NCBI RefSeq assembly: GCF_020405225.1
Contig: NZ_CP084472.1
Span: forward strand, 2,604,001 to 2,668,000
Origin: Natrinema sp. DC36
GTDB lineage: Archaea; Halobacteriota; Halobacteria; Halobacteriales; Natrialbaceae
Direction of reading: 5' to 3'
Length of the DNA stretch: 64,000 bases
The position numbers were made by a program, and so were the translations under genes. Shown here piece after piece: positions 25,852-39,150 of this stretch. Numbering within the stretch: the first letter of the stretch is position 1; each line of letters starts with the position of its first letter. Under the pieces are notes generated by a model. It saw nothing but the letters and a program-made list of their open reading frames with translations. It was not told the DNA's origin and searched no databases.

Positions 25852-26781
25852 ATGTCCATCTCGAGCCAAAACATACTCGTCACGGGCGGTGCCGGATTCA
25901 TCGGCTCGCACCTCACCGAGCGCCTGCTCGCGGACGGCACTGACGTAACCGTCGTCGACGACCTCTCGAACGGCGACCGCGACCGCGTCCCCGACGACGC
26001 CGAGTTCCTCGAGGCCGACCTCACCGATCCCGATGCTCTGGAAGGCCAGCTCGAGAACGTCGACCTCGTCTTCCACCTCGCGGCGTCGAAACACGTCGAT
26101 ACGGACCGCCCCCACGGCCAGTTCGACGACAACACGCGGATGACCCGCAACATCCTCGAGGCGATGGCCGACGCCGACGTGACCGAGATCGCCTACACCT
26201 CCTCCTCGACGGTCTACGGCGAGGCCCCGCGGCCGACGCCCGAGGACTACGCGCCCCTCGAGCCGATCAGCGCCTACGGGGCGAGCAAACTCGCGGATGA
26301 GGGCTTGCTTTCCGCGCGGGCGCACAGCCACGACCTCACCGTCTGGAACTTCAGATTCGCGAACGTCGTCGGTCCGCGCCTCCGCGGGGCGGTGATTCCG
26401 GATTTCATCGAGAAACTGCAGGACGATCCTGACCACCTGACGATCCTCGGCGACGGCCGCCAGGAGAAGTCGTATCTCCACCTCGAGGACTGTCTCGACG
26501 CGATCCTTCACACCGTCGAGCACGCCGACGACCCGATGAACACCTACAATCTGGGCACGCGCACGACGACCTCGGTCGACCGGATCGCAGCCATCGTCGC
26601 CGAGGAACTGGGGGTCGATCCCGACCACGAGTACACCGGGGGCGAGCGGGGCTGGACCGGCGACGTGCCGAAGATGCGCCTCTCGATCGAGAAGCTCTCG
26701 GCGCTGGGTTGGGAGCCCCGCCTCTCGAGCGACGAGGCGGTCCGTCGTTCGACGCGCGAGATCATCGAGGAGCTACGCTAA
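25852..26781 (+). CDS. NAD-dependent nucleotide-sugar epimerase/dehydratase
   Basis: This 309-residue extended-SDR enzyme has the Rossmann motif GGAGFIGS at 12-19, TSSSTVYGE near 117-125, and catalytic YGASK near 141-145. NFRFANVVGPRLRGAVIPDFIEKL near 165-188 and GDGRQEKSYLHLEDC near 198-212 are typical of GalE/RmlB-like enzymes acting on UDP- or dTDP-hexoses. The Thr/Ser-Tyr-Lys catalytic set appears complete. It is the first of several carbohydrate-active genes to about 34.6 kb. That fits supply of an activated sugar for surface glycans, though the precise epimer is unknown. Confidence 0.9.
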   Translation: MSISSQNILVTGGAGFIGSHLTERLLADGTDVTVVDDLSNGDRDRVPDDAEFLEADLTDPDALEGQLENVDLVFHLAASKHVDTDRPHGQFDDNTRMTRNILEAMADADVTEIAYTSSSTVYGEAPRPTPEDYAPLEPISAYGASKLADEGLLSARAHSHDLTVWNFRFANVVGPRLRGAVIPDFIEKLQDDPDHLTILGDGRQEKSYLHLEDCLDAILHTVEHADDPMNTYNLGTRTTTSVDRIAAIVAEELGVDPDHEYTGGERGWTGDVPKMRLSIEKLSALGWEPRLSSDEAVRRSTREIIEELR

Positions 26782-26853: not shown

Positions 26854-26869
26854 TTTAGGTGGGCTTAAA
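26854..26869. promoter_or_regulatory. Degenerate DtxR-like half-palindrome overlapping a TATA-like element
   Basis: TTTAGGTGGGCTTAAA differs from the TTTAGG-N4-CCTAAA pattern seen four times downstream at one position. Its right half is part of CTTAAATA, a TATA-like element 26 nt before the ATG at 26894. It may be a weak operator or only a promoter. Confidence 0.35.
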
Positions 26870-26893
26870 TATCTGGGTCTGAGAGTGGCTGGT

Positions 26894-28078
26894 ATGACCG
26901 ACGGTGGCGGGGACTCGGCGTCGCGGGATGCCGATCACGGATCGAACGCGGGGGATCCCGCCAACAGCGACCAGCCCGGGAGGATTACAGCGGCGCTGAC
27001 CCGCCGGCGGCTGACGATCGGGGGGACGATACTCGTTCTTCTCGGCCTGCTCGTCGCCCTTCGGGACGTCGATCTGGGGACCGTCGTCGCCGAGATGTCG
27101 ACGGCCGATCCGCGGTTGCTCGGGGCCGCGATCGTCGTGTACACCGCCTCGTGGCCGCTTCGCGGTCGCCGGTACAGCGACGTGGTGGACGCGATCGGCC
27201 ACCGAGGCGGCACCGCGTTCTGTACGGCGGCCGTCTTCGTCAGCCAGACGGCCAACCTCGCGATTCCGGCGCGGGCGGGGGACGCGGTACGCGCGTACGT
27301 AATGCGTACCCGTCGCGAAGTACCCTACACCGCGGGGTTCGCGTCGCTGGCCGTCGAACGGGTGTTCGATCTGGCGACGATCGCCGCGCTCGCTGGACTC
27401 GCGACGGCGTGGCTCGCACTGAGCGGCGCGGCCGGACCGCTCGAGATCGCCGCCGAGGCCGGCGGCGCGCGAACGGCCCTCGTGGCCGCGGTAGCCGTGA
27501 GCACGGCGACGGTCGGCGTCGGGTTCGTCGTCGTCACGTCCGCTCGTGCGGACCACGGACTGGCCGGGTGGCTCCGGGACCGGACCGTCGGTCGGCCGCG
27601 CCTCGAGGAGATGCTCGAGGCCGCGCTCGGATTCGCGGGCGACGTACAGGTCGTCGCTCGACACCCGAAAGCGCTGGCGACGATCGGAGCGGAAAGCCTG
27701 CTGATCTGGGTGCTCGACGTGCTCACGGCGGTCCTCGTCCTCGCGGCACTCGATAGCGGGCTCGCCGTCGGGCCGCTGCTGGCCGTGGGGACGCTGGCGG
27801 TCAGCGTCGGAAACCTCGCGAAAGTCCTCCCGCTGTCCCAGGGTGGCGTCGGGCTCTACGAGGCGGCCTTTACGGCGCTCGTGGTCGGGCTCACGCCCGT
27901 CGGTGCGAGCACGGCGCTGGCGGCGGCGATCGTCGATCACGCGCTGAAAAACGGCGTGACGCTGCTCGGCGGTGCCGGTTCGGTCGCCTCGCTGGGAATT
28001 TCGCTATCGGACGCGGCGGAGTCGGATGCGGAGGCGACGCGGGAGACCGGTAACTTTTTAGGCTCGCCTAAAAGATAG
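26894..28078 (+). CDS. Flippase-like membrane protein (LPG synthase TM-domain/UPF0104 family)
   Basis: This 394-residue protein has a disordered acidic N-terminus (~35 residues) and about eight TM helices. The family pattern PLRGRRYSDVVDAIGHRGG near 85, PARAGDAVRAYVM near 122 (the conserved R-x-G-D/E loop) and LAKVLPLSQGGVGLYEAAFTALVVGLT (in two pieces, ~313-340) place it with AglD-C-terminal-like and LPG synthetase-type transporters, which move lipid-linked molecules across membranes. The ATG at 26894 is preferred over a GTG 9 bp upstream because a TATA-like element sits 26 nt before it. The last codons (LGSPKR) contain the DtxR-type operator of the next gene. Confidence 0.88.
   Translation: MTDGGGDSASRDADHGSNAGDPANSDQPGRITAALTRRRLTIGGTILVLLGLLVALRDVDLGTVVAEMSTADPRLLGAAIVVYTASWPLRGRRYSDVVDAIGHRGGTAFCTAAVFVSQTANLAIPARAGDAVRAYVMRTRREVPYTAGFASLAVERVFDLATIAALAGLATAWLALSGAAGPLEIAAEAGGARTALVAAVAVSTATVGVGFVVVTSARADHGLAGWLRDRTVGRPRLEEMLEAALGFAGDVQVVARHPKALATIGAESLLIWVLDVLTAVLVLAALDSGLAVGPLLAVGTLAVSVGNLAKVLPLSQGGVGLYEAAFTALVVGLTPVGASTALAAAIVDHALKNGVTLLGGAGSVASLGISLSDAAESDAEATRETGNFLGSPKR
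28056..28073. promoter_or_regulatory. DtxR/IdeR-type operator 1
   Basis: TTTTAGGCTCGCCTAAAA is an 18 bp near-perfect palindrome. It lies inside the last codons of the flippase gene, 13 bp before the ATG of the RGP-like gene, and covers the expected TATA/start area. It matches the iron-box pattern TTAGGYTNRCCTAA. Confidence 0.75.
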
Positions 28079-28085
28079 GCGAGCA

Positions 28086-29252
28086 ATGAGTCAGGATATC
28101 TGCGTAATCGTCCCGACGATCCGGGAGTACGAGTGCATGCGGTCGTACTTCGGGAACGCGCGCAACCACGGCTTCGACCTCTCTCGACTGCACGTGGTCC
28201 TCGTCACGGAGGACTTCTGTGAAACCGATGCGATGGAAGCGATGCTCGAGGACGAAGGCGTCTCGGGCGAGGTTTTCGACGGGAGCCGACGCGAGGAGTG
28301 GTACGACGCACACGACGTTTCGGAGTACGGCCACGTCGTCCCGGCGGCGAGTCACGCCGAGACGAGCTTCGGCCTGCTTTACATGTGGGCTCACGACGAG
28401 TTCGACTACGGATTTTTCATCGACGACGACACCCTCCCCCACGAGGATCAGGACTTTTTCGGCGATCACATGGAGAACCTTGCCTTCGAAGGCGAGATAG
28501 AGGCCGTCTCCTCCGACGAACAGTGGGTCAACGTTCTCTACCAGAACGCAGACGTTCACGGGCTCTATCCGCGTGGCTACCCCTACTCGGCGATGGACGA
28601 GACGGTCGAGACCGGGACGGCCGAAATCGACGGTGGCGAGGTCGTCGCCTCGCAGGGACTCTGGACGAACGTCCCCGACCTCGACGCCGTCCGCATCCTC
28701 ATGGACGGCGACCTCGAGGGACAGGCGCAGACCCGAACCTCGAGCGACGACTTCGGTGACGACTTCGTCGCGGCTCGCGACAACTATCTCACCGTCTGCT
28801 CGATGAACCTCGCCTTTCGCCGCGAGGTGATCCCCGCGTTCTACCAGCTTCCCATGGACGACAACGAGTGGGAGGTCGGCCGCTTCGACGACATCTGGTC
28901 GGGCGTCTTCCTCAAGCGCGCCTGCGACGTGCTCGGCAAGCGGATCTACAACGGCGGGCCGCTCTGTGAGCACAACAAGGCCCCCCGCAGCACGTTCGAC
29001 GATCTCAACAACGAGGTCCCCGGGCTCGAGCTCAACGAACACCTCTGGCGCGTCGTCGACGAGGTCGGTTCGGACGCGGACGACTACGCCGACGTTTTCG
29101 AGGCGATGGCCGACGAACTCGCCGACGGCGACTGGTCCGAGTACAACAACGGCGCGTTCTTCAACCACGTGGGCGAACACATGCGCAACTGGCTCGAGTG
29201 TCTGTCAGCCCTCGAGCGGACTGCGCCCGTTGCGGGGAATCGACGCCTATAA
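28086..29252 (+). CDS. RGP-family (alpha-1,4-glucan-protein synthase/UDP-sugar mutase-like) protein
   Basis: This 388-residue protein resembles plant reversibly glycosylated polypeptides/UDP-arabinopyranose mutases (PF03214-like). It begins ICVIVPTIREYECMRSYF, and FFIDDDTLPHED at 110-121 holds the DDD nucleotide-sugar motif (D113-D115). VHGLYPRGYPYS near 158 contains the R-G-Y-P-Y segment bearing the reversibly glycosylated Arg in plant proteins. NGAFFNHVGEHMRNWLE lies near the end. Family members interconvert UDP-pyranose and UDP-furanose sugars or self-glycosylate. Control by a DtxR-type operator 13 bp upstream suggests induction in low iron, which I have not seen stated for this family. 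Confidence 0.82.
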   Translation: MSQDICVIVPTIREYECMRSYFGNARNHGFDLSRLHVVLVTEDFCETDAMEAMLEDEGVSGEVFDGSRREEWYDAHDVSEYGHVVPAASHAETSFGLLYMWAHDEFDYGFFIDDDTLPHEDQDFFGDHMENLAFEGEIEAVSSDEQWVNVLYQNADVHGLYPRGYPYSAMDETVETGTAEIDGGEVVASQGLWTNVPDLDAVRILMDGDLEGQAQTRTSSDDFGDDFVAARDNYLTVCSMNLAFRREVIPAFYQLPMDDNEWEVGRFDDIWSGVFLKRACDVLGKRIYNGGPLCEHNKAPRSTFDDLNNEVPGLELNEHLWRVVDEVGSDADDYADVFEAMADELADGDWSEYNNGAFFNHVGEHMRNWLECLSALERTAPVAGNRRL

Positions 29253-29257
29253 GTATA

Positions 29258-29273
29258 TTTAGGTTAGCCTAAA
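29258..29273. promoter_or_regulatory. DtxR/IdeR-type operator 2
   Basis: TTTAGGTTAGCCTAAA lies 4 bp before the ATG at 29278. The TATA-like CTATAAGTATA begins at 29248, inside the stop codon of the preceding gene. A repressor bound here would cover the start site. This copy is the closest of the four to the bacterial IdeR consensus (TTAGGTTAGSCTAA). Confidence 0.85.
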
Positions 29274-29277
29274 CTGC

Positions 29278-30408
29278 ATGACGAAGCAACACGATTTGAC
29301 GGGTCGGCGGGCGTTTCTCGTCGGATCGACTGCACTCGGCACGGCGGGCCTGGCCGGCTGTATGGGCCTGATTGGGAGCGATGACGACGACGAGGACGAC
29401 GAGAACGTCTTCAACCAGATCGGCTCCGGCCGTTCGGGGCGCGGTCAGCCCGGCGGCACGCCAATGTCGGAACTGCCGGACCTCGAGGGCGAACTCCACA
29501 TCTACTCCGGGCGAAACGAGTTCCTCGTCGGGACGCTCATCAGCAGCCTCGAGGACCAGTACGACGATTTCGTCGTCGAAGGGCCTCGATACGCCGACTC
29601 CTCCTATCTCGCGAATCAGATCGCCGAGGCGGGCGCGGGAACCAACGCGGACGTTTTCTTTACGGTCGACTCGGCTGCACTCGGGGAGGTCGCGAGCGAG
29701 GGGATGTCCCGATCCCTCTCGGACGACGTCCTGGAGATGGTCCCCGAGGAGTTCCGGACCGACGAGTGGGTCGGAACCTCGGGCCGCATCCGAACGATTC
29801 CCTACAATTCGTCGGCGTTCTCCGAGAGCGATATGCCCACGAGCATCAGTGACTACGCCGACTTCGAGGGCGACCTCGGCTGGGCCCCCTCGTACGGCTC
29901 CTGTCAGTCGTTCGTGACCGCGATGCGCATCCTCGAGGGCGAGGAGGCCACTCGCGAGTGGCTTCAGAGCGTCGTCGACAACGGAATCACCGGGTACAAC
30001 AACGAAATGGCCGTCTGTCAGGCCGTCGCGGACGGCGAGATCGACGCCGGGTTCACGAACCACTACTACATCCAGCGGGTCCTCGAGGGATCCCCGGACG
30101 CGCCGATCGAGACGGTGTTCACCGAGGGCGACGCGGGCGCGACGTTCGACGTCGCGGGCGCGACCGTCATCGAGAACACGGACAACGCCGAGCTGGCGGA
30201 GAACTTCGTTCGCCACCTCCTCTCGGCGGAAGTCCAGGAGTTCTTCGCGGTGGAAACGTTCGAGTATCCGCTGATCCCCGAGGCCGAACCGGTCGGCGAA
30301 CTCCCGTCGGTCGACGATCTGAACGTTCCGGATATCGACCCGTCGGAGCTGTCCGATCTGCAGCCGACGCTGGACCTGATGCGCAGTATCGACGGCATCA
30401 GCATCTAA
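29278..30408 (+). CDS. Tat-lipoprotein Fe(III)-type ABC substrate-binding protein
   Basis: The 376-residue precursor has GRRAFLVGSTALGTAGLAGC at its N-terminus, a twin-arginine signal ending in a lipobox (Cys28), then an acidic linker. The binding domain starts near ELHIYSGRNEFLVGTLISSLE. It contains NADVFFTVDSAALGEV near 122 and WVGTSGRIRTIPYNSS near 163, the Tyr/Arg pattern of FbpA/FutA Fe(III)-binding proteins. TNHYYIQRV near 261 supplies the tandem Tyr that ligate Fe(III) in this class. It probably delivers ferric iron to the permease at 37.5 kb. Its promoter carries operator 2; GT39-like 30422 follows 13 bp later. Confidence 0.9.
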   Translation: MTKQHDLTGRRAFLVGSTALGTAGLAGCMGLIGSDDDDEDDENVFNQIGSGRSGRGQPGGTPMSELPDLEGELHIYSGRNEFLVGTLISSLEDQYDDFVVEGPRYADSSYLANQIAEAGAGTNADVFFTVDSAALGEVASEGMSRSLSDDVLEMVPEEFRTDEWVGTSGRIRTIPYNSSAFSESDMPTSISDYADFEGDLGWAPSYGSCQSFVTAMRILEGEEATREWLQSVVDNGITGYNNEMAVCQAVADGEIDAGFTNHYYIQRVLEGSPDAPIETVFTEGDAGATFDVAGATVIENTDNAELAENFVRHLLSAEVQEFFAVETFEYPLIPEAEPVGELPSVDDLNVPDIDPSELSDLQPTLDLMRSIDGISI

Positions 30409-30421
30409 TCCGACTCTCCTC

Positions 30422-32641
30422 GTGATTCGGGATCCGATTCGTCGATTTCGGTCGGGGAACGCGTTCGGTGAGCGGCCACGCCCCGTCCAGTTGGCCGCAC
30501 TCGCCGTCGTCTGTCTCGCCGGCCTCGCCGTCGCGCTACTCGCGACCGAGCTCTTTCCCTATCACTCGAGCAACGACGACGAGGGGGTCTACCTCCTGCA
30601 GGCGGCCATGTTGCTCGAGGGACAGCTTACGCTCCGAGCCGGTGAGATCGCCGACGCGTTCCGGCCGTGGTTTTTCGTGCAGGACGGCGGTCGGCTCTAC
30701 TCGAAGTACTCGCCGGTCGTCCCCGCGATGTACGCCGTCTCGATGGCGCTGTTCGGTGAGCCGCGGGTGACGCTCGTCGCCGTCGCGGTGGGCAACGCCG
30801 CCCTCGTGTACCTCCTCGGATCGATGGTGTTCGACCGATGGGTCGGCGTCGTCGCCGCGGCCGTCTTCGCCGCCGCTCCCATGACGCTCCTGACGTCGTC
30901 GGTGTTCCTCCCGTACGCACCGACGACGCTGCTGAATCTCCTCTTCGCTGCGTGGTACCTCCGCGGCGTCCGGGGCGGCCGACTCCGCAACGCGGTCCTG
31001 GCCGGCGCGGCGACCGGACTCGCCTTCTTCGCGCGGCCGTACACCGCCGTCCTGTTCGCGCTCCCCTTCATCTGTCACGCGGGCTGGTCGGTGCTCCGAT
31101 CGGCTCGCGGACGCTGGTGGGAACGGGGACTCCGACCGCCGCCCGACCCCGTCCGACGAAACGGGCTCACCGCCGCGTTCGGGCTCGCCTTCGTCGGGCT
31201 GGCGCTCGCGTACAACGCCCGCGTGACGGGCTCTGCGCTCACGTTCCCGTACGCGGCGTTCGCGCCGCTCGACGGTCCCGGGTTCGGCCACCGCGAACTC
31301 CTCGATCACTCGCTGCAGTACACGCCGGCCGTCGCCTTCGAGGCGAACGCCGCCGCCCTCTGGTACTTCGCCACGCGCTGGTTCACTGCGGGACTGCTCG
31401 GAACGATCACCGCGTTGGCGGGACTCGCCGTGGCGCTGTGGCACTGGCTTCCCCTCCCCGGCACCGACGGCGAGCGCGGATGGCGGAGCGACCGGACCGC
31501 GGGCCTGCTGCTAGCCGGGCTCTTCCCCGCCGTCGTTCTCGGCAATTTCGCGTTCTGGGGCAACTACAACGTCCACGCCGGAATCGGCGATCCGACCACC
31601 GGCCTCCTCTCGAAGTTCGGGCCGTTCTATCACTTCGACCTGCTCGTGCCGCTCTCGATCTTCGCCGCGTTCGCCGTCGTTACGGGCTGGCGGCGGTGTC
31701 GCGATCTCGCGGTCCGAAACCGGATCGCGACGATCGCGTCGCCGCGGGCGGCTCGAGCCGTCGTCGTCGCCGCCTTCCTCGCGAGCGCCCTCGTCGCCGG
31801 CGGGGCGAACGCGGCCCTCCTCTCGGACCCGGTCGAGCGCAACGCCGTCCACACCGAGCGCTTCGAGTCCGCCTACGAGCCCGTCGAAGAGCGCGACCTC
31901 GAGAACGCGCTAGTCTTCCTGCCGACACCCTACGGCCAGTGGCAGAATCACCCCTTCCAGGCCCTCCGGAACGACGGCGGCCTCGACGGGGAGGTTGTCT
32001 ACGCGCTCGAGGGATCCCCGGAACGGGATTTCGCCGTCCTCGACGCCTATCCCGATCGGGACTACTACCGCTACAGCTATCAGGGCGAGTGGACGGCGAC
32101 GCCCGACGACGAGATCGTCGCCCAGCTCGAACCGCTCTCGGTCCGATCGGGCGAGCGACTCGAGGGTGAAACCACCGTCGGGATCGCAGATCGGGTCGAT
32201 CGAGTGGTGGTTCGCCTCGAGAACGACGGCGAGGTCGCCGAGTACGCCGTCACTGGCCCCGACGGCGAGCACTCCGTGGCGTGGTCCCTCGAGCGCGCCG
32301 GCGGGAACGCCAGCGACGCGACGCAGAGCGCTCCCGAAGACCGCGGACTGGTTCGGCTGAACGGATCCGGGGACGATCCCGTCCCGTTCGACGGAGCCGA
32401 CGAGATCGTGCTGACGGTCACGCAGGTCCAGCCGGAAGGCGCGACGTACACCTATCGGCAGGAGGTGACCGTCCGGACGACCGACGACGGCGTCGAAGCG
32501 ATCTGGCCGCCCGAGCGGCGGGGCTGTCGGCTCGTCACCGATTGCGGCACCGAGGGAACCTACCTCCCCGACCGGCCGGAGACCCACAGTCGGTGGGAGA
32601 CGTTCGAAACGCGACTCGAAAAGCGGGAGTCGGCGTCGTAG
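30422..32641 (+). CDS. GT39/ArnT-like membrane glycosyltransferase
   Basis: This 739-residue protein starts at GTG 30422, 13 bp after the binding-protein stop, and is likely co-transcribed with it. About a dozen TM helices span ~20-480. The first loop holds FPYHSSNDDEGVYLLQAAMLLEGQ, with the D-D-E acidic site typical of the GT-C superfamily. RLYSKYSPVVPAMYAVSMALFGE follows, also typical. A soluble C-terminal domain of ~250 residues contains WQNHPFQALRNDG and beta-rich segments. GT-C enzymes transfer sugars from polyprenyl/dolichyl phosphate donors outside the membrane. The acceptor (lipid, protein or polysaccharide) is unknown. Confidence 0.82.
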   Translation: MIRDPIRRFRSGNAFGERPRPVQLAALAVVCLAGLAVALLATELFPYHSSNDDEGVYLLQAAMLLEGQLTLRAGEIADAFRPWFFVQDGGRLYSKYSPVVPAMYAVSMALFGEPRVTLVAVAVGNAALVYLLGSMVFDRWVGVVAAAVFAAAPMTLLTSSVFLPYAPTTLLNLLFAAWYLRGVRGGRLRNAVLAGAATGLAFFARPYTAVLFALPFICHAGWSVLRSARGRWWERGLRPPPDPVRRNGLTAAFGLAFVGLALAYNARVTGSALTFPYAAFAPLDGPGFGHRELLDHSLQYTPAVAFEANAAALWYFATRWFTAGLLGTITALAGLAVALWHWLPLPGTDGERGWRSDRTAGLLLAGLFPAVVLGNFAFWGNYNVHAGIGDPTTGLLSKFGPFYHFDLLVPLSIFAAFAVVTGWRRCRDLAVRNRIATIASPRAARAVVVAAFLASALVAGGANAALLSDPVERNAVHTERFESAYEPVEERDLENALVFLPTPYGQWQNHPFQALRNDGGLDGEVVYALEGSPERDFAVLDAYPDRDYYRYSYQGEWTATPDDEIVAQLEPLSVRSGERLEGETTVGIADRVDRVVVRLENDGEVAEYAVTGPDGEHSVAWSLERAGGNASDATQSAPEDRGLVRLNGSGDDPVPFDGADEIVLTVTQVQPEGATYTYRQEVTVRTTDDGVEAIWPPERRGCRLVTDCGTEGTYLPDRPETHSRWETFETRLEKRESAS

Positions 32642-32728: not shown

Positions 32729-33766
32729 ATGACCGAGAGGCGTTGCGGTTACGTCACGAGCAGTAGCGGAGTGAACGACGCCGGCGCGGTCTGTTGCTGG
32801 CGACCCACGTGGGAGGACGCCGATCGGTGCATCTGGCACACCGAGACCGTCGTTCCGACGGCGGCGTACGAACGGGAGCGGCCGGAGCCGAGCGAGCGGC
32901 TCGACGGAGCGGACTTTCGGGGAGCATCATTGAGCGGAGCGTCGTTTCTCGCCGGCCGGTCCCTCGTCGGCGCGGACTTCACGGACGCCGTCCTCGACGG
33001 CGCCGATCTCTCGGAGGCGGACCTCCGCCGAGCGACGTTTCGAGACGTCGATGCGCACGGAACGTCGTTCCGGGAGGCGAACCTTCACGACGCGGTGTTC
33101 GTCTTCGCCGACCTGCGCGGCGCGGACTTCCGGAATGCGAGGCTCTACCGTGCCGGCCTGACTGACCTTCGGATCAATCTCGAGACGGCGTTCGGCGAGC
33201 GGACGGTGTACGAGGACGAGATCGATCGAGTGTCGACCGAGGGCGCGGAGCGGGCCGACTCCGCACAGTGGGTCTACCGCGAACTACAGCGACTCTACGA
33301 CGAGAACGCGTTCCCCGAACGGGTTCACACCTACTACCTGCGCGAGATGGACCTCCGGCGGCGGCAGGCCTGGCGGGTCGGAAACTACCTACAGGCGTTC
33401 AAGCTCGCCGGCTCGCGCTGGGTCATGCTGTACGGGACGAGCCCGTGGCGAGTCGTAACGACGTCGCTGCTCTTGATCCTCGTCTGCGCGGGACTCTATC
33501 CGCTGACCGGCGGCATTCAAGAGGTCGGGACCGACAGTGCGGTCACGTATCAGATCGACGACCCCACCGATGCACCGAGGTGGCTCCTCGTTCAGGCGTT
33601 CCTCAAGAGCCTCTACTTCAGCGTCATCACCTTCGCGACGCTCGGCTACGGCGACATCCAGCCCGTCGGGGGCTGGGCCCGCGCCATCGCTGGTGTCGAA
33701 ACCCTGCTCGGATCGCTCCTGATGGCGCTGCTGGTGTTCGTCCTCACGCGAAGCGTCCACTACTAG
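32729..33766 (+). CDS. Pentapeptide-repeat protein fused to a two-TM potassium-type channel
   Basis: The 345-residue protein has an N-terminal Cys-rich head (C6, C22, C23, C34, H37), probably zinc-binding. Pentapeptide repeats follow at ~57-150 (LDGADFRGASLSGASF, LVGADFTDAVLDGADL, LRGADFRNARLYRAGL), and then an amphipathic linker with WVYRELQRLYDENAFPERVHTYYLREMDL. A pore module has TM1 at ~232-252, a pore helix with selectivity filter TLGYGD at ~304-309, and TM2 at ~320-342. GYG means K+ selectivity. The repeat coil may gate or anchor the channel. It lies outside any clear operon. Confidence 0.88.
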   Translation: MTERRCGYVTSSSGVNDAGAVCCWRPTWEDADRCIWHTETVVPTAAYERERPEPSERLDGADFRGASLSGASFLAGRSLVGADFTDAVLDGADLSEADLRRATFRDVDAHGTSFREANLHDAVFVFADLRGADFRNARLYRAGLTDLRINLETAFGERTVYEDEIDRVSTEGAERADSAQWVYRELQRLYDENAFPERVHTYYLREMDLRRRQAWRVGNYLQAFKLAGSRWVMLYGTSPWRVVTTSLLLILVCAGLYPLTGGIQEVGTDSAVTYQIDDPTDAPRWLLVQAFLKSLYFSVITFATLGYGDIQPVGGWARAIAGVETLLGSLLMALLVFVLTRSVHY

Positions 33767-33855: not shown

Positions 33856-34605
33856 CTACTGCGTCGGCCGATGTGGCAGCTCTCGAAGTCGCTCCTCGAG
33901 CGAAACCTTGACGATCGAGCGTGCGATTTCGAGACCGCCTTTCAGCGGATCGAGTTTCGTCTGGCCGGCGCGCTCGCGGTACGCGATCGGGTGTTCGCGA
34001 ACGTCGTAGCCCCGAAGCAGCGGGCGAATCAAGAGTTCGGCCGAGAGACCGGTGTTCTCGGTCCACTCGATCGATTCGACGACGTCGCGGCGGTAGGCCC
34101 GCATGCCGGTCGTCGTGTCGTGGACGCGGGTACCCATCAGGAGGCTCGCGATCGCCGCGAACGCGTGATTCCCGAGACGGTTGAACGCCGGCATCGCGTC
34201 GGCCCCGTGGTAGAGCCGATCGCCGCTGACGACATCGTAGCCGTCGTTGATCAGCGCGAGGAACTCCGGTAGCTGCTCCATCGGATACGTGTCGTCGCAG
34301 TCCGTCGTGACGACGATCGGCCGATCTGGCTCCAAGATCGCCGCGCGCACGGCGACGCCGTACCCCTGTGGCTCCTGTTCGATGACCGTCGCGCCGTGTT
34401 CACGGGCGATCTCGGGGGTGCGGTCCGCGGAGCCGTCAACGCAGACGACCTCCGCCTTCCCGTTGGTAACGTCCTCGATATCCGAGAGCACTGTCCCGAT
34501 CGCTTCCTCCTCGTTGTACGTTCCCATGACGACGCTGAGATCGTCGAAGGTGTACTCGTCCTCGTTGCTGCCGTCCGTTCGTTCGGAGTCCGCTCCGCTA
34601 CTCAT
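33856..34605 (-). CDS. GT2-family dolichyl-phosphate sugar synthase-like glycosyltransferase
   Basis: This 249-residue cytoplasmic GT-A enzyme has a disordered N-tail and then LSVVMGTYNEEEAIGTVLSDIE at ~23-44. VVCVDGSADRTPEIAREHG matches the DPM1 VDDxSxDxT pattern near 53-71, and TTDCDDTYP at ~100-108 is the metal-binding DxD equivalent. LMGTRVHDTTTGMRAYRRDVV and SAELLIRPLLRGYDVREHPIAYRERAGQTKLDPLKGG are hallmarks of dolichol-phosphate mannose/glucose synthases. It lacks C-terminal TM helices. It probably makes the polyprenyl-phosphate sugar used by a GT-C enzyme. A DtxR-type operator lies in its promoter. Confidence 0.9.
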   Translation of the reverse strand: MSSGADSERTDGSNEDEYTFDDLSVVMGTYNEEEAIGTVLSDIEDVTNGKAEVVCVDGSADRTPEIAREHGATVIEQEPQGYGVAVRAAILEPDRPIVVTTDCDDTYPMEQLPEFLALINDGYDVVSGDRLYHGADAMPAFNRLGNHAFAAIASLLMGTRVHDTTTGMRAYRRDVVESIEWTENTGLSAELLIRPLLRGYDVREHPIAYRERAGQTKLDPLKGGLEIARSIVKVSLEERLRELPHRPTQ

Positions 34606-34637: not shown

Positions 34638-34653
34638 TTTAGGTTCGCCTAAA
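34638..34653. promoter_or_regulatory. DtxR/IdeR-type operator 3
   Basis: TTTAGGTTCGCCTAAA lies between a minus-strand TATA-like element (34660-34669, GGTATATACGG in sense) and the start at 34605. It falls where transcription should start, so a bound repressor would block it. Confidence 0.8.
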
Positions 34654-34767: not shown

Positions 34768-35016
34768 TCAATCGGAAGAATGAGACGGATAGTAGTGCGT
34801 ATATATTGCGGCAAACGTGACGAAAGCCGCAAGCGAACCAACTATTACACCTGTCCAATTTGGATACGGGATTCCTACCCAGGATAATACCATCATGGCT
34901 ACTTGAGCACCAAGAGACATACAGATAATAACTACCAATCCTAGTATGAATCGTGTCACTGGGTTTTTTTCAACCGAATTAGGGAGCATATATGAGTGTG
35001 CATTTTCAAGTGACAT
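34768..35016 (-). CDS. Small two-TM membrane protein in AT-rich islet
   Basis: The product has 82 residues from the ATG at 35016 (MSLENAHSYMLPNSVEKNP); an upstream ATG at 35040 would make 90. Two hydrophobic segments, TRFILGLVVIICMSLGAQVAMMVL and WTGVIVGSLAAFVTFAAIYT, are joined by a short loop WVGIPYPN. The segment from 34640 to about 35110 is markedly AT-richer than its surroundings, and the codons used (AAT, ATA, TTT) are unlike those of neighbouring genes, so the gene was probably acquired. No family is recognised. Confidence 0.6.
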   Translation of the reverse strand: MSLENAHSYMLPNSVEKNPVTRFILGLVVIICMSLGAQVAMMVLSWVGIPYPNWTGVIVGSLAAFVTFAAIYTHYYPSHSSD

Positions 35017-35096
35017 CAATCTTTTTGATCTAAGAAACACTGATTAGGCATTATTATTTCTACTCTTGATTTTATTTAGTTCTTCATCAAATGAAT

Positions 35097-36734
35097 TTAG
35101 GTTCTGTCAGCTATTTGATCTGCAGTCTTCAGCGCGAGCGCCGCGATCGTCAGCGTCGGGTTCATCGCCCCGGCGGTCGGGAAGACGCTGCTCGAGGCGA
35201 TCCAGCAGTTCTCGATGTCGTGCGTTCGGAGGGTCGGATCGACGACGCTCTCGTCGGGGTCGGTGCCCATCCGTGTCGTTCCCATGTGGTGGTTGGTCGG
35301 GACGGTGTTTCCGGGCCCCTCCTGCCAGGTGATCTCGGCACCCAGTTCGTCGAAGACGGTCTCCTGAATCTCGTTCGCTCGCTCGATCGTCCGCTCCGCT
35401 CGATCGCCGACGGTCCAGTGGACGTCCGGAACCGGATTTCCGCGGTCGTCGGTTCGGTCGGGGTCGAGTCCGATGTAACTGTCCTCGCGGGGGAGTTGCT
35501 CGATCAGCGCGCCCATGGCGATGTGGGTGCCGTAGTCGCCTCGGATCCGCTCGAGTAAGTCGTCGCCCCAGTCGTCGCCGGTCAGCGCCATGCCGACCGG
35601 CGAGGGGCCGGCGAAGTTGAAGAATTCGAGTTTGAAGGGCGCGTACTCCGCGTCGGCCTCGTCGTAGAACTGGTGGGACTCGCTGGTCAGGAAGCCGACG
35701 TGGTTCTGCCGGGTCGGCTCGTCGAGGACGCCGAACGTGCCCGCAAACGAGTGTTCCATGAAGTATCGGCCGACGAGCCCGCTCGAGTTGGCCAGCCCGT
35801 CGGGGTAGTGACTCGACTCTGAGAGGAGCAGGAGCCGAGGCGTTTCGACGCCGCCGCAGGCGACGACGAAGTCGTCGGCCTCCTGCCGATGCCGCTCGTC
35901 GTCGGGCGTGGCGTAAACTGCCGCCGAAATCGAATCGGCACCGTGCTCGAGGCGCTGGACCGGCGCGCGGTCGATGACGGTCGCGCCCTTGCGCTCGGCG
36001 CGCTCGACGTGGACCGTCGCGTCGTACTTCGCGCCGGAGGGACAGACCGGTCGACAGGTGCCGTAGCCGACGCAGGCGCCCCGGTCGTCGTAGCTCTCCG
36101 AATTGCGCGCGTTGGGCACGGAGTGCATCGCGATCTCGAGTTCGTCGCAGACCTCGGCGAACAGCGAGTCGCTGTAGGAGGGCGGAAACGCGGGCATCGG
36201 ATGAGGCTCCTCGCGGGGCGGTGCGAAGGGGTTGTCGGCGGCACCGGCGATCCCTAGTTCCCGCTCGGCGGCGGCGTAGTACGGACGGAGGTCCTCGTAG
36301 TCGATCGGCCAGTCCGTCCCGACTCCGCGGGCGCTCCGGGAGTTAAAATCGTCTTCGTGGAGCCGCATCACCATCCCCTGCCAGTGCAGCGTCGACCCGC
36401 CGACGCCCTTGACCCGGGCGCGGTTCAGCGGATAGTGTCGCTCACCGGAGGCCGAGTACGCGTCGCGCTCCGGGTCGCCGTCCCAGACGGTCGGGCGACC
36501 GTACGCCGGTCTGATCGCCCGCTCCTGTCTGGCGAGCCTGTCGGCCGGATCGAACCGCGGCCCGGCCTCGAGGATCACGACCTCGCGGCCGGCCTCGGCG
36601 AGTCGATCCGCGACGATCCCGCCGGCGGGACCCGCACCGATTACGCAGACGTCAGCGTCTTCGACGGGCGTGCGATCGGCATCGTCGTCGGTGATCGGCT
36701 CCGCCGACTCGGCGGGCGGTCGACTGCCGCTCAC
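35097..36734 (-). CDS. GMC oxidoreductase with [3Fe-4S] motif (FAD sugar/gluconate dehydrogenase catalytic subunit)
   Basis: The 545-residue product starts at a GTG that overlaps the previous stop as GTGA, so the two subunits are coupled. The FAD site is DVCVIGAGPAGGIVADRLAEAG at ~28-49. GGSTLHWQGMVMRL near 104-117 is GMC-specific. CVGYGTCRPVCPSGA at ~220-234 has the C-x5-C-x3-C spacing of the [3Fe-4S] cluster in bacterial FAD-glucose dehydrogenase and gluconate 2-dehydrogenase. The catalytic His lies in NHHMGTTRMG at ~481-490. It has no signal peptide and would be co-exported with the Tat-signalled small subunit. A cytochrome subunit is missing, so the electron acceptor may be a blue-copper or other carrier. 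Confidence 0.9.
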   Translation of the reverse strand: MSGSRPPAESAEPITDDDADRTPVEDADVCVIGAGPAGGIVADRLAEAGREVVILEAGPRFDPADRLARQERAIRPAYGRPTVWDGDPERDAYSASGERHYPLNRARVKGVGGSTLHWQGMVMRLHEDDFNSRSARGVGTDWPIDYEDLRPYYAAAERELGIAGAADNPFAPPREEPHPMPAFPPSYSDSLFAEVCDELEIAMHSVPNARNSESYDDRGACVGYGTCRPVCPSGAKYDATVHVERAERKGATVIDRAPVQRLEHGADSISAAVYATPDDERHRQEADDFVVACGGVETPRLLLLSESSHYPDGLANSSGLVGRYFMEHSFAGTFGVLDEPTRQNHVGFLTSESHQFYDEADAEYAPFKLEFFNFAGPSPVGMALTGDDWGDDLLERIRGDYGTHIAMGALIEQLPREDSYIGLDPDRTDDRGNPVPDVHWTVGDRAERTIERANEIQETVFDELGAEITWQEGPGNTVPTNHHMGTTRMGTDPDESVVDPTLRTHDIENCWIASSSVFPTAGAMNPTLTIAALALKTADQIADRT

Positions 36735-37288
36735 GTACCGGATCCCCGCTGGTAGCTCTCGAGCCCGCCCGGGTGGCCGATCGGGTTTTCGATACCGGCT
36801 AACTCGCCGCCCGTCGGCGAGGTGTACAGCGCCAACAGTAGCTCGTTGACGACGTAGTAGCGCATCCGTTCGGCGGGCCGTCCCGCGGGATCTTCGTCGG
36901 CGGTATCCGCACCCACCTCCCGCAGACACCGGTCCCGGTCGTCGTGGGACAGTGCCGGAAAGCGATCGCCGAACCACTGTTCGGCGCGCTCGTTCAGTTC
37001 CGCGACCGCGGCATCCACGTTCGTCGCGTGCGTCCGGTCTTCGAGCCGTCCCTCGAGGAAGGCCTCGACGAACGTCGTCGTACCGGTGACCGCGCTGGGA
37101 TAGACGACCTCGGCGACCGCGACCAGCGTCTCGCGAATCCGCTCGATGTCGATATCGGCCGACGGATCGCCGTCACTCCCGTCGGAGGCCGGTCCGGTCG
37201 GGGCCGCACAGCCCGATAGCGTCCCGCCGCCGACGCCCAGCGCGGCCAGCGCGGCGACCGCGTCTCGCCTGGTCAGCTCCATGCGCAT
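36731..37288 (-). CDS. Gluconate 2-dehydrogenase subunit 3-family Tat lipoprotein
   Basis: This 185-residue small subunit begins MRMELTRRDAVAALAALGVGGGTLSGC, a Tat signal with a lipobox-like end (Cys27). The body has the all-helical subunit-3 pattern: VAEVVYPSAVTGTTTFVEAFLEGRLE, AVAELNERAEQWFGDRFPAL, RMRYYVVNELLLALYTSPTGGELAGIENPIGHPGG in sequence. In bacterial enzymes this subunit carries the Tat signal that hitchhikes the catalytic subunit to the outside and stabilises it. The ATG at 37288 lies 4 bp from operator 4, so the two-subunit enzyme is predicted to be derepressed in low metal. Confidence 0.88.
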   Translation of the reverse strand: MRMELTRRDAVAALAALGVGGGTLSGCAAPTGPASDGSDGDPSADIDIERIRETLVAVAEVVYPSAVTGTTTFVEAFLEGRLEDRTHATNVDAAVAELNERAEQWFGDRFPALSHDDRDRCLREVGADTADEDPAGRPAERMRYYVVNELLLALYTSPTGGELAGIENPIGHPGGLESYQRGSGT

Positions 37289-37291
37289 CGA

Positions 37292-37305
37292 TTAGGCAAA
37301 CCTAA
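37292..37305. promoter_or_regulatory. DtxR/IdeR-type operator 4
   Basis: TTAGGCAAACCTAA lies between the minus-strand TATA-like element (37307-37313, TATAAGG in sense) and the ATG at 37288 of the dehydrogenase small subunit. It sits 208 bp upstream of the divergent permease start and could also affect that gene. Confidence 0.78.
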
Positions 37306-37512: not shown

Positions 37513-39150
37513 ATGAGATCACTCCTCTCACGACGACGCGAGACGACCGACGGACCGCCGCTCGGACTGTTGCTCCTGTCCGGTGTCATCGCCGTGGGCG
37601 TACTGTTCCCGCTCACGTATCTCGTATTCGAAGCGATAACCGTCGATACGGGCCGGCTCTGGGAGATGCTCGCCCGTCCGCAAACCGCGACGATCATCAC
37701 GAACAGCCTCCTGCTCATGACCGGCGTCACCGTGCTTTCGGCGCTGATCGGCGTCCCACTGGCGTGGCTCACCGTCCAGACCGATCTTCCCTTCCGCCGG
37801 TTCTGGTCCGTCATCGTCGCCCTCCCACTGGTCGTCCCGAGCTATATCGGCGCGTTCGCCTTCGTCTCGGCATTCGGTCCGCAAGGCGAGTTTCAGTCGA
37901 TTCTCGAGCCCCTCGGCATCCAACAGTTACCGGAAATCTACGGGCTCCCGGGTGCGACGCTCGTCATCACGCTCTATACGTATCCGTACGTCTACCTGAC
38001 GGCTCGAGCCGCGCTCCTCTCGTTCGACACGACGCTTCTCGACGCCGCCCGGACGCTGAACCACGATACGTGGGCCGCCTTTCGCCGCGTGACACTCCCG
38101 CAGGTCCGTCCCGCCGTCGTCGCCGGCGGCCTGCTCGCGGCGCTGTACGCCGTCTCCGACTTCGGGACGCCGGCGATCATGCAACTCCCCGTCTTCACGC
38201 AACAAATTTTCCTCGAGTACCGATCGTTCGGCCGGGATTACGCGGCCTTCCTCTCGCTCCAGTTGCTCGTCATCGTCTTGGCCGTTATCGTCCTCGAGTG
38301 GTGGGCCCGGCCCGATCGGACGGTCCAGGGCGACGGCTCCGAGGGCTCGAGCGGTCCCGTCGTCGAACTCGGCCGGTGGCGCTGGCCGGCGACGCTGTTG
38401 CCAGCGGGCGTCACTGCCCTCGCGTTGCTGGTCCCGCTGTGGATCCTCGGGCTCTGGCTCGTGACCGCCGATCCCGACGCGCGGCCGTCGCTGGCCTTCG
38501 AGCTCGAGTACGCGGTCAACTCCGTGATGGTGGCCGGCGCGGCTGCGCTCGTGGCCGTGCTCGTCGCCCTGCCGATCGCGTACGTCGCGGCCAGATACGA
38601 CTCGCCGCTGTCGACGATCTTCGAGCGATCTACCTACGTGGGCTTCGCCGTCCCGGGGATCGTCCTCGGGCTCGCGCTCGTCTCCTTTGCGACGAGCTAC
38701 GAGGAGACGATCCGTCAGATGGACGGACTCACTGCACTGCCGGCGCTCTACCAGACGATTCCGCTGCTGGTGTTCGCCTACGTTATCCGATTCATGCCCC
38801 AGGCAGTCGGCTCGATCCGAACCACGACACTGCAGGTCGATACGAAACTGGTCGAGGCCGCACGGACGCTCGGCGAGACGCCGCTTCGCACGTTCCGAAA
38901 GGTGACCCTCCCCCTTATCGCACCGGGCGTGACTGCCGGCGCGGCCCTCGTCTTCCTGACGACGATGAAAGAGCTCCCGGCGACCCTGCTCTTGCGACCG
39001 ACCGGCTTCGAAACCCTCGTCACGATCATCTGGAAAGCACAGGGCGAGGCGTTCTTCCAGTACGCCGTGATCCCCTCGCTGTTGTTGCTCGTCGTCTCCG
39101 GACTCTCGCTGCTCGTGCTCCTCTCGCAGGGCGGGCGCGAAGGGCTCTGA
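37513..39150 (+). CDS. FbpB-type two-domain ABC permease (Fe(III)/thiamine class)
   Basis: This 545-residue protein has about 12 TM helices in two homologous halves (~10-270 and ~290-540). Each half carries the EAA loop facing the ATPase: LLDAARTLNHDTWAAFRRVTLP near 175-196 and LVEAARTLGETPLRTFRKVTLP near 445-466. The architecture is that of FbpB/SfuB and ThiP. With the binding protein at 29.3 kb it would import ferric iron. The start is set at ATG 37513, just before the first TM helix; an upstream TTG-started extension is basic and non-homologous. No cognate ATPase gene is in the window. Confidence 0.9.
   Translation: MRSLLSRRRETTDGPPLGLLLLSGVIAVGVLFPLTYLVFEAITVDTGRLWEMLARPQTATIITNSLLLMTGVTVLSALIGVPLAWLTVQTDLPFRRFWSVIVALPLVVPSYIGAFAFVSAFGPQGEFQSILEPLGIQQLPEIYGLPGATLVITLYTYPYVYLTARAALLSFDTTLLDAARTLNHDTWAAFRRVTLPQVRPAVVAGGLLAALYAVSDFGTPAIMQLPVFTQQIFLEYRSFGRDYAAFLSLQLLVIVLAVIVLEWWARPDRTVQGDGSEGSSGPVVELGRWRWPATLLPAGVTALALLVPLWILGLWLVTADPDARPSLAFELEYAVNSVMVAGAAALVAVLVALPIAYVAARYDSPLSTIFERSTYVGFAVPGIVLGLALVSFATSYEETIRQMDGLTALPALYQTIPLLVFAYVIRFMPQAVGSIRTTTLQVDTKLVEAARTLGETPLRTFRKVTLPLIAPGVTAGAALVFLTTMKELPATLLLRPTGFETLVTIIWKAQGEAFFQYAVIPSLLLLVVSGLSLLVLLSQGGREGL

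Follow-up and report, generated by a model that had tools for sequence, protein, structure and literature searches.

An iron-regulon operator and a co-inherited glycan pathway accompany an apparently cytochrome-free FAD dehydrogenase in haloarchaea

Low iron seems to induce an exported sugar-oxidising enzyme in haloarchaea. The enzyme considered here is encoded by a pair of genes in a window of 64,000 nucleotides (the whole stretch of DNA analysed) from Natrinema sp. DC36 (contig NZ_CP084472.1, positions 2,604,001 to 2,668,000; all coordinates given without a locus label are those of the window). It consists of a flavin adenine dinucleotide (FAD) dehydrogenase of the GMC type and a small partner, subunit 3, whose gene lies just behind an operator of the DtxR/SirR type. 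A first-pass annotation had recognised an iron-controlled dehydrogenase lacking a cytochrome subunit, and had suggested that its reaction serves iron acquisition. It had overlooked a glycan pathway that is inherited together with subunit 3, and this pathway makes a different substrate the most likely one. We lean, with a little less than even confidence, towards an enzyme whose substrate is a lipid- or surface-linked sugar from this glycan pathway and whose reaction serves iron acquisition.

The dehydrogenase gene pair

The subunit 3 gene (36734..37282, minus strand; 182 amino acids plus stop) belongs to family PF13618 (39.5 bits for a cut-off of 23.4) and encodes the putative partner and export subunit, with a twin-arginine translocation (Tat) signal, MELTRRDAVAALAAL, and a lipobox, LSGC. 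The GMC dehydrogenase gene (35097..36734, minus strand; 545 amino acids), which matches the Pfam domains GMC_oxred_N and GMC_oxred_C, starts with a GTG inside the GTGA overlap at 36734 that couples both genes; a longer frame starting at 36977 was rejected in favour of this coupling GTG. By comparison with relatives, the start codon of subunit 3 is the second ATG, at 37282 (MELTRRD...), 9 nt past the operator, and the alternative ATG at 37288 is disfavoured. The GMC subunit has no signal peptide in its own sequence and would leave the cell as a hitch-hiker on subunit 3, exported folded through the Tat pathway. The overlap and the Tat arginines of subunit 3 (R5 R6, invariant across aligned relatives) bear out the coupled, Tat-dependent partner of the first-pass annotation; its description as a lipoprotein does not extend to the family, since just 40 of 120 relatives have the lipobox cysteine.

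The cysteine motif of the GMC subunit, C221-x5-C227-x3-C231, is of the [3Fe-4S] type, as had been proposed, and is invariant in all 101 homologues, as is the catalytic pair H482/N525. The nearest solved structures, both by sequence and by fold (the latter using a predicted model with a mean predicted local distance difference test score, pLDDT, of 69.8), are the FAD glucose dehydrogenase of Burkholderia cepacia (6a2u/8hdd) and the fructose dehydrogenase of Gluconobacter (7w2j). These enzymes share with the haloarchaeal pair the GMC fold, the C-x5-C-x3-C motif, the His/Asn pair and a small partner subunit, at an identity of about 35% or less. The haloarchaeal pair differs from them by its DtxR-type operator, by its linkage to glycan genes, by the lack of any multihaem cytochrome subunit that we could find, and by a subunit 3 without detectable similarity to a solved gamma subunit. 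Sequence, profile and structure searches with subunit 3 gave no trustworthy fold match. Gluconate 2-dehydrogenase has a subunit 3 of the same family (PF13618), also coupled to a GMC subunit, but no cytochrome c subunit was found here, and the genomic and regulatory contexts differ. A second GMC/subunit 3 pair, of about 55% identity and without the operator, was seen in another genome (locus L196 of G306); it may be a differently regulated paralogue and was kept separate from the main homologue set.

No search made for a cytochrome subunit found one. The cytochrome c family PF00034 has zero matches genome-wide (other cytochrome families were not searched across the whole genome), no cytochrome gene lies near the pair, no cytochrome family was found to recur beside its homologues, and there is no CxxCH protein among the examined open reading frames (ORFs) of the regulon. 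The first-pass annotation had also put forward a search for a halocyanin sharing this operator, and none emerged: of the seven cupredoxin matches in the genome, not one lies within about 1.5 kb of an exact operator. The only candidate, an asymmetric site with one mismatch at one of these loci, was judged to be due to chance. In our proposal, electrons would pass from FAD to the iron-sulfur cluster and on to something else than a dedicated cytochrome subunit; a halocyanin or the membrane chain might take them.

An operator of the iron regulon

The operator ahead of subunit 3 (TTAGGTTTGCCTAA; 37292..37305, minus strand) stands between a TATA element (AGTATAAGG) and the start codon, and matches TTAGG-N4-CCTAA exactly. 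Such exact sites number 20 genome-wide, four of them in the window; when up to one mismatch is allowed, the window holds six matches where 0.12 are expected. The other three exact copies each precede a gene of the same locus: TTAGGCGAACCTAA (34639..34652, minus strand) is found 5' of the gene for a dolichyl-phosphate sugar transferase, TTAGGTTAGCCTAA (29259..29272, plus strand) between a TATA element and the ATG of a gene for an FbpA-type protein, and TTAGGCTCGCCTAA (28058..28071, plus strand) just 5' of a gene of family GT75. A site with one mismatch (TTAGGTGGGCTTAA; 26855..26868, plus strand) is found 5' of a UPF0104 gene. Elsewhere in the genome, operators precede FecCD permeases, siderophore-type binding proteins, an FbpC-like ATPase and a diaminobutyrate transaminase/decarboxylase/IucA_IucC operon, the Haloferax counterpart of which is induced at low iron (PMC7407949); further sites were found near Dps/ferritin genes. 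Judged from sequence, the operator marks a genuine iron regulon.

The operator of the pair is also conserved. Among 125 homologous loci, 112 have an exact operator within 200 nt 5' of subunit 3, at a distance of 3-11 nt in 111 of them, and several of the loci without one reflect mis-set starts or sites with one mismatch. Several siderophore-type genes carry operators in pairs 35-36 bp apart (11359 + 11395 and 14877 + 14912 in locus L168, 9654 + 9690 in L172), in contrast with the single sites of the glycan locus.

Co-inheritance with a glycan pathway

The distribution of the genes was followed in 69 Halobacteria genomes. Subunit 3, the GT75 protein, the dolichyl-phosphate (DolP) transferase and a GT-C membrane glycosyltransferase have identical distributions: 52 genomes, about three quarters of the sample, carry all four and 17 carry none. 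Subunit 3 and GT75 were matched computationally, and the lists for the DolP transferase and the GT-C enzyme were compared by reading the tables. Treated as an unordered event, two sets of this kind would coincide perfectly by chance with a probability of about 1e-16, a figure to be read with shared ancestry in mind, which shrinks the effective number of genomes. Moreover, the presence or absence of this module switches within genera, namely g35 and g39. In each of the 52 module genomes, the FbpA gene is located directly 3' of GT75, 28-431 bp downstream.

Genomes in which the locus has been broken up are informative. The GMC gene is unlinked in G003, G014, G041, G055 and G058, where it retains its operator at a distance of between about 190 kb and 3.3 Mb. 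In G016, G041, G055 and G058, subunit 3 is split from the GMC gene and remains flanked by the genes for GT-C and the DolP transferase. Such cases speak for a dehydrogenase that takes part in the glycan pathway instead of just lying beside it.

Genes of the surrounding locus

The arrangement described below recurs in dozens of haloarchaeal loci. The GT75 protein (28086..29252, plus strand; PF03214, also known as RGP) is of the NDP-pyranose mutase type. Its alignment shows the DDD motif and the residues matching the catalytic Arg159 and the metal ligand His287 of MtdL (PMC9937993), all of them conserved; it differs from MtdL and the plant UDP-arabinopyranose mutases in being archaeal, in following an operator of the iron regulon and in having an FbpA gene directly 3'. 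The dolichyl-phosphate hexose transferase (33856..34605, minus strand) scores 407.7 bits against the NF041391 equivalog (cut-off 375). Like AepG and the HVO_1613-type glycosyltransferases of haloarchaea, it would make a DolP sugar outside N-glycosylation; AepG, however, is encoded with the aglB cluster and produces DolP-glucuronic acid, and its publication does not mention iron as a regulator. The third glycan enzyme (30422..32641, plus strand) is an ArnT/PMT-like GT-C membrane glycosyltransferase with a C-terminal DUF7846, the PMT_2 score of which is slightly under the cut-off.

The putative ferric-iron binding Tat lipoprotein (29278..30408, plus strand) matches solved FbpA 7w3w (E = 1e-52) and keeps the Tyr-Tyr motif (NHYYIQR). 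An FbpB-type permease with two BPD_transp_1 domains (37513..39150, plus strand) is divergent from subunit 3. Compared with known FbpABC importers, this FbpA sits in a glycan locus and the candidate ATPase gene is distant, with an operator of its own: no ATPase gene for the importer was found in the window locus, and the nearest candidate in kind, an FbpC-like ABC ATPase with an exact operator in front of its gene, is encoded about 2.2 Mb away (L169:7563-8726). In other genomes an importer ATPase is encoded inside the cluster (for instance L178:5481-6584). In close relatives, two types of FbpA and permease occupy one locus (L048 and L049; the two FbpA types are about 83% and 46% identical to that of the window). 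GT75, the DolP transferase and GMC are alike across both, as though the importer had been swapped.

Two further families are found at the edge of the locus, a UPF0104 / LPG_synthase_TM flippase-like membrane protein (26885..28078, plus strand), frequent but not constant, and a protein of the NAD-dependent sugar epimerase/dehydratase family (25852..26781, plus strand), which lies near the locus in 38 relatives. HVO_1859 (UPF0104) and HVO_0655 (GalE family) rank with the Haloferax proteins that iron starvation induces most (PMC11349517); both families occur in this locus, a match at family level that is not used as evidence. Pentapeptide repeats and an ion-channel domain are fused in one protein encoded inside the locus (32729-33766), which also occurs in L048 and L053 and is absent in most relatives. 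Neither Pfam nor NCBIfam gave a match for a small ORF (34768-35040) that separates the DolP transferase gene from the GMC gene; it was not seen in relatives, and we left it out of the model.

A proposed mechanism and its alternatives

Our proposal runs as follows. Scarce iron would relieve repression by a DtxR/SirR-type regulator. In the cytoplasm, the GT75 protein would turn an NDP-sugar into its furanose form and the GT2 enzyme, i.e., the DolP transferase, would put a sugar on dolichyl phosphate, and at the outer face the ArnT-like GT-C enzyme would move it from DolP to an acceptor. The exported dehydrogenase would oxidise a hydroxyl on this lipid- or surface-linked sugar, as the extracytoplasmic oxidation step of the pathway, and the oxidised glycan would hold Fe(III) or hand it over to the co-encoded FbpA-type importer. 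A similar mode of action is offered by DprE1, the mycobacterial decaprenyl-phosphoryl ribose oxidase, a flavoenzyme acting on a polyprenyl-phosphate-linked sugar. DprE1 can only be an analogy: it belongs to another flavoprotein family (Pfam puts the window protein in GMC_oxred_N/C) and has neither a subunit 3 nor the iron-sulfur cluster motif. In its fullest and more speculative form, which we think improbable but worth stating, the proposal is that of a cell-bound sugar counterpart of a siderophore, widespread among haloarchaea: a dolichol-dependent, furanose-containing surface glycan, once oxidised outside the cell by a cytochrome-free FAD/[3Fe-4S] dehydrogenase, would bind Fe(III) as a ligand and so supply an FbpABC importer.

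Several points weigh against the oxidation of a linked sugar for iron uptake. FbpA-like proteins are encoded by 67 of the 69 genomes, including 15 of the 17 without the module; therefore, the importer does not need the module. In the 69-genome set, subunit 3 serves as a proxy for GMC, which itself was checked in 30 genomes and in the fetched loci, and identical profiles are indicative of a shared pathway, not of the order of its steps or of its chemistry. Iron control in Natrinema sp. DC36 is read from operator sites, and no sequence feature names the substrate of the dehydrogenase. As for the claim that the reaction serves iron acquisition, the conserved operator and the FbpA-type importer in the locus are on its side; that the reaction acts directly on iron, or on free sugars, is less probable.

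Among the alternatives, the one that survives best is that the module remodels the envelope, altering a surface glycan at low iron for barrier, adhesion or iron sparing, with the dehydrogenase as one step of its synthesis. The co-inheritance and regulon data fit it too, and so does the presence of the importer in genomes without the module; moreover, in Haloarcula a DolP-glucuronosyltransferase leads to an acidic exopolysaccharide that is required for dispersal at high salt (PMC9943897). On the other hand, the FbpA gene adjoins GT75 in 52/52 module genomes, which suggests a tie to iron transport tighter than general remodelling would give, and we regard this alternative as unlikely, though a serious one.

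Two others seem to us quite improbable, and to the same degree. The dehydrogenase could be a ferric reductase, oxidising a sugar and passing the electrons through its iron-sulfur cluster to surface Fe(III), which would be mobilised. This is the reading nearest to the idea of the first-pass annotation, and the missing cytochrome partner, the invariant C-x5-C-x3-C motif and the operator all agree with it; but the importer encoded alongside is of the FbpA type, solved members of which bind Fe(III) and not Fe(II), and the perfect co-inheritance with glycan enzymes would be left unexplained. Oxidation of free sugars to extracellular aldonic or keto acids that chelate and solubilise iron, as with bacterial glucose/gluconate dehydrogenases, would suit the closest solved relatives (glucose and fructose dehydrogenases) and the gluconate dehydrogenase type of subunit 3, but explains neither the restriction, in the sample, to genomes with GT75, DolP transferase and GT-C nor the subunit 3 that remains in the glycan locus after GMC has relocated.

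Significance

All the enzymes of the module belong to known families; no description of their iron-controlled combination was found in the searchable literature, although key regulon papers may mention it. The co-inheritance and the FbpA linkage point to an undescribed link of surface sugars to iron uptake. The gene set is compact and its on/off distribution clean; therefore, the question is directly testable by gene deletion in laboratory haloarchaea. If a dolichol-linked or surface sugar is indeed oxidised for iron uptake, this would represent a new mode of iron gathering and would give archaeal DolP sugars a defined role beyond N-glycosylation.
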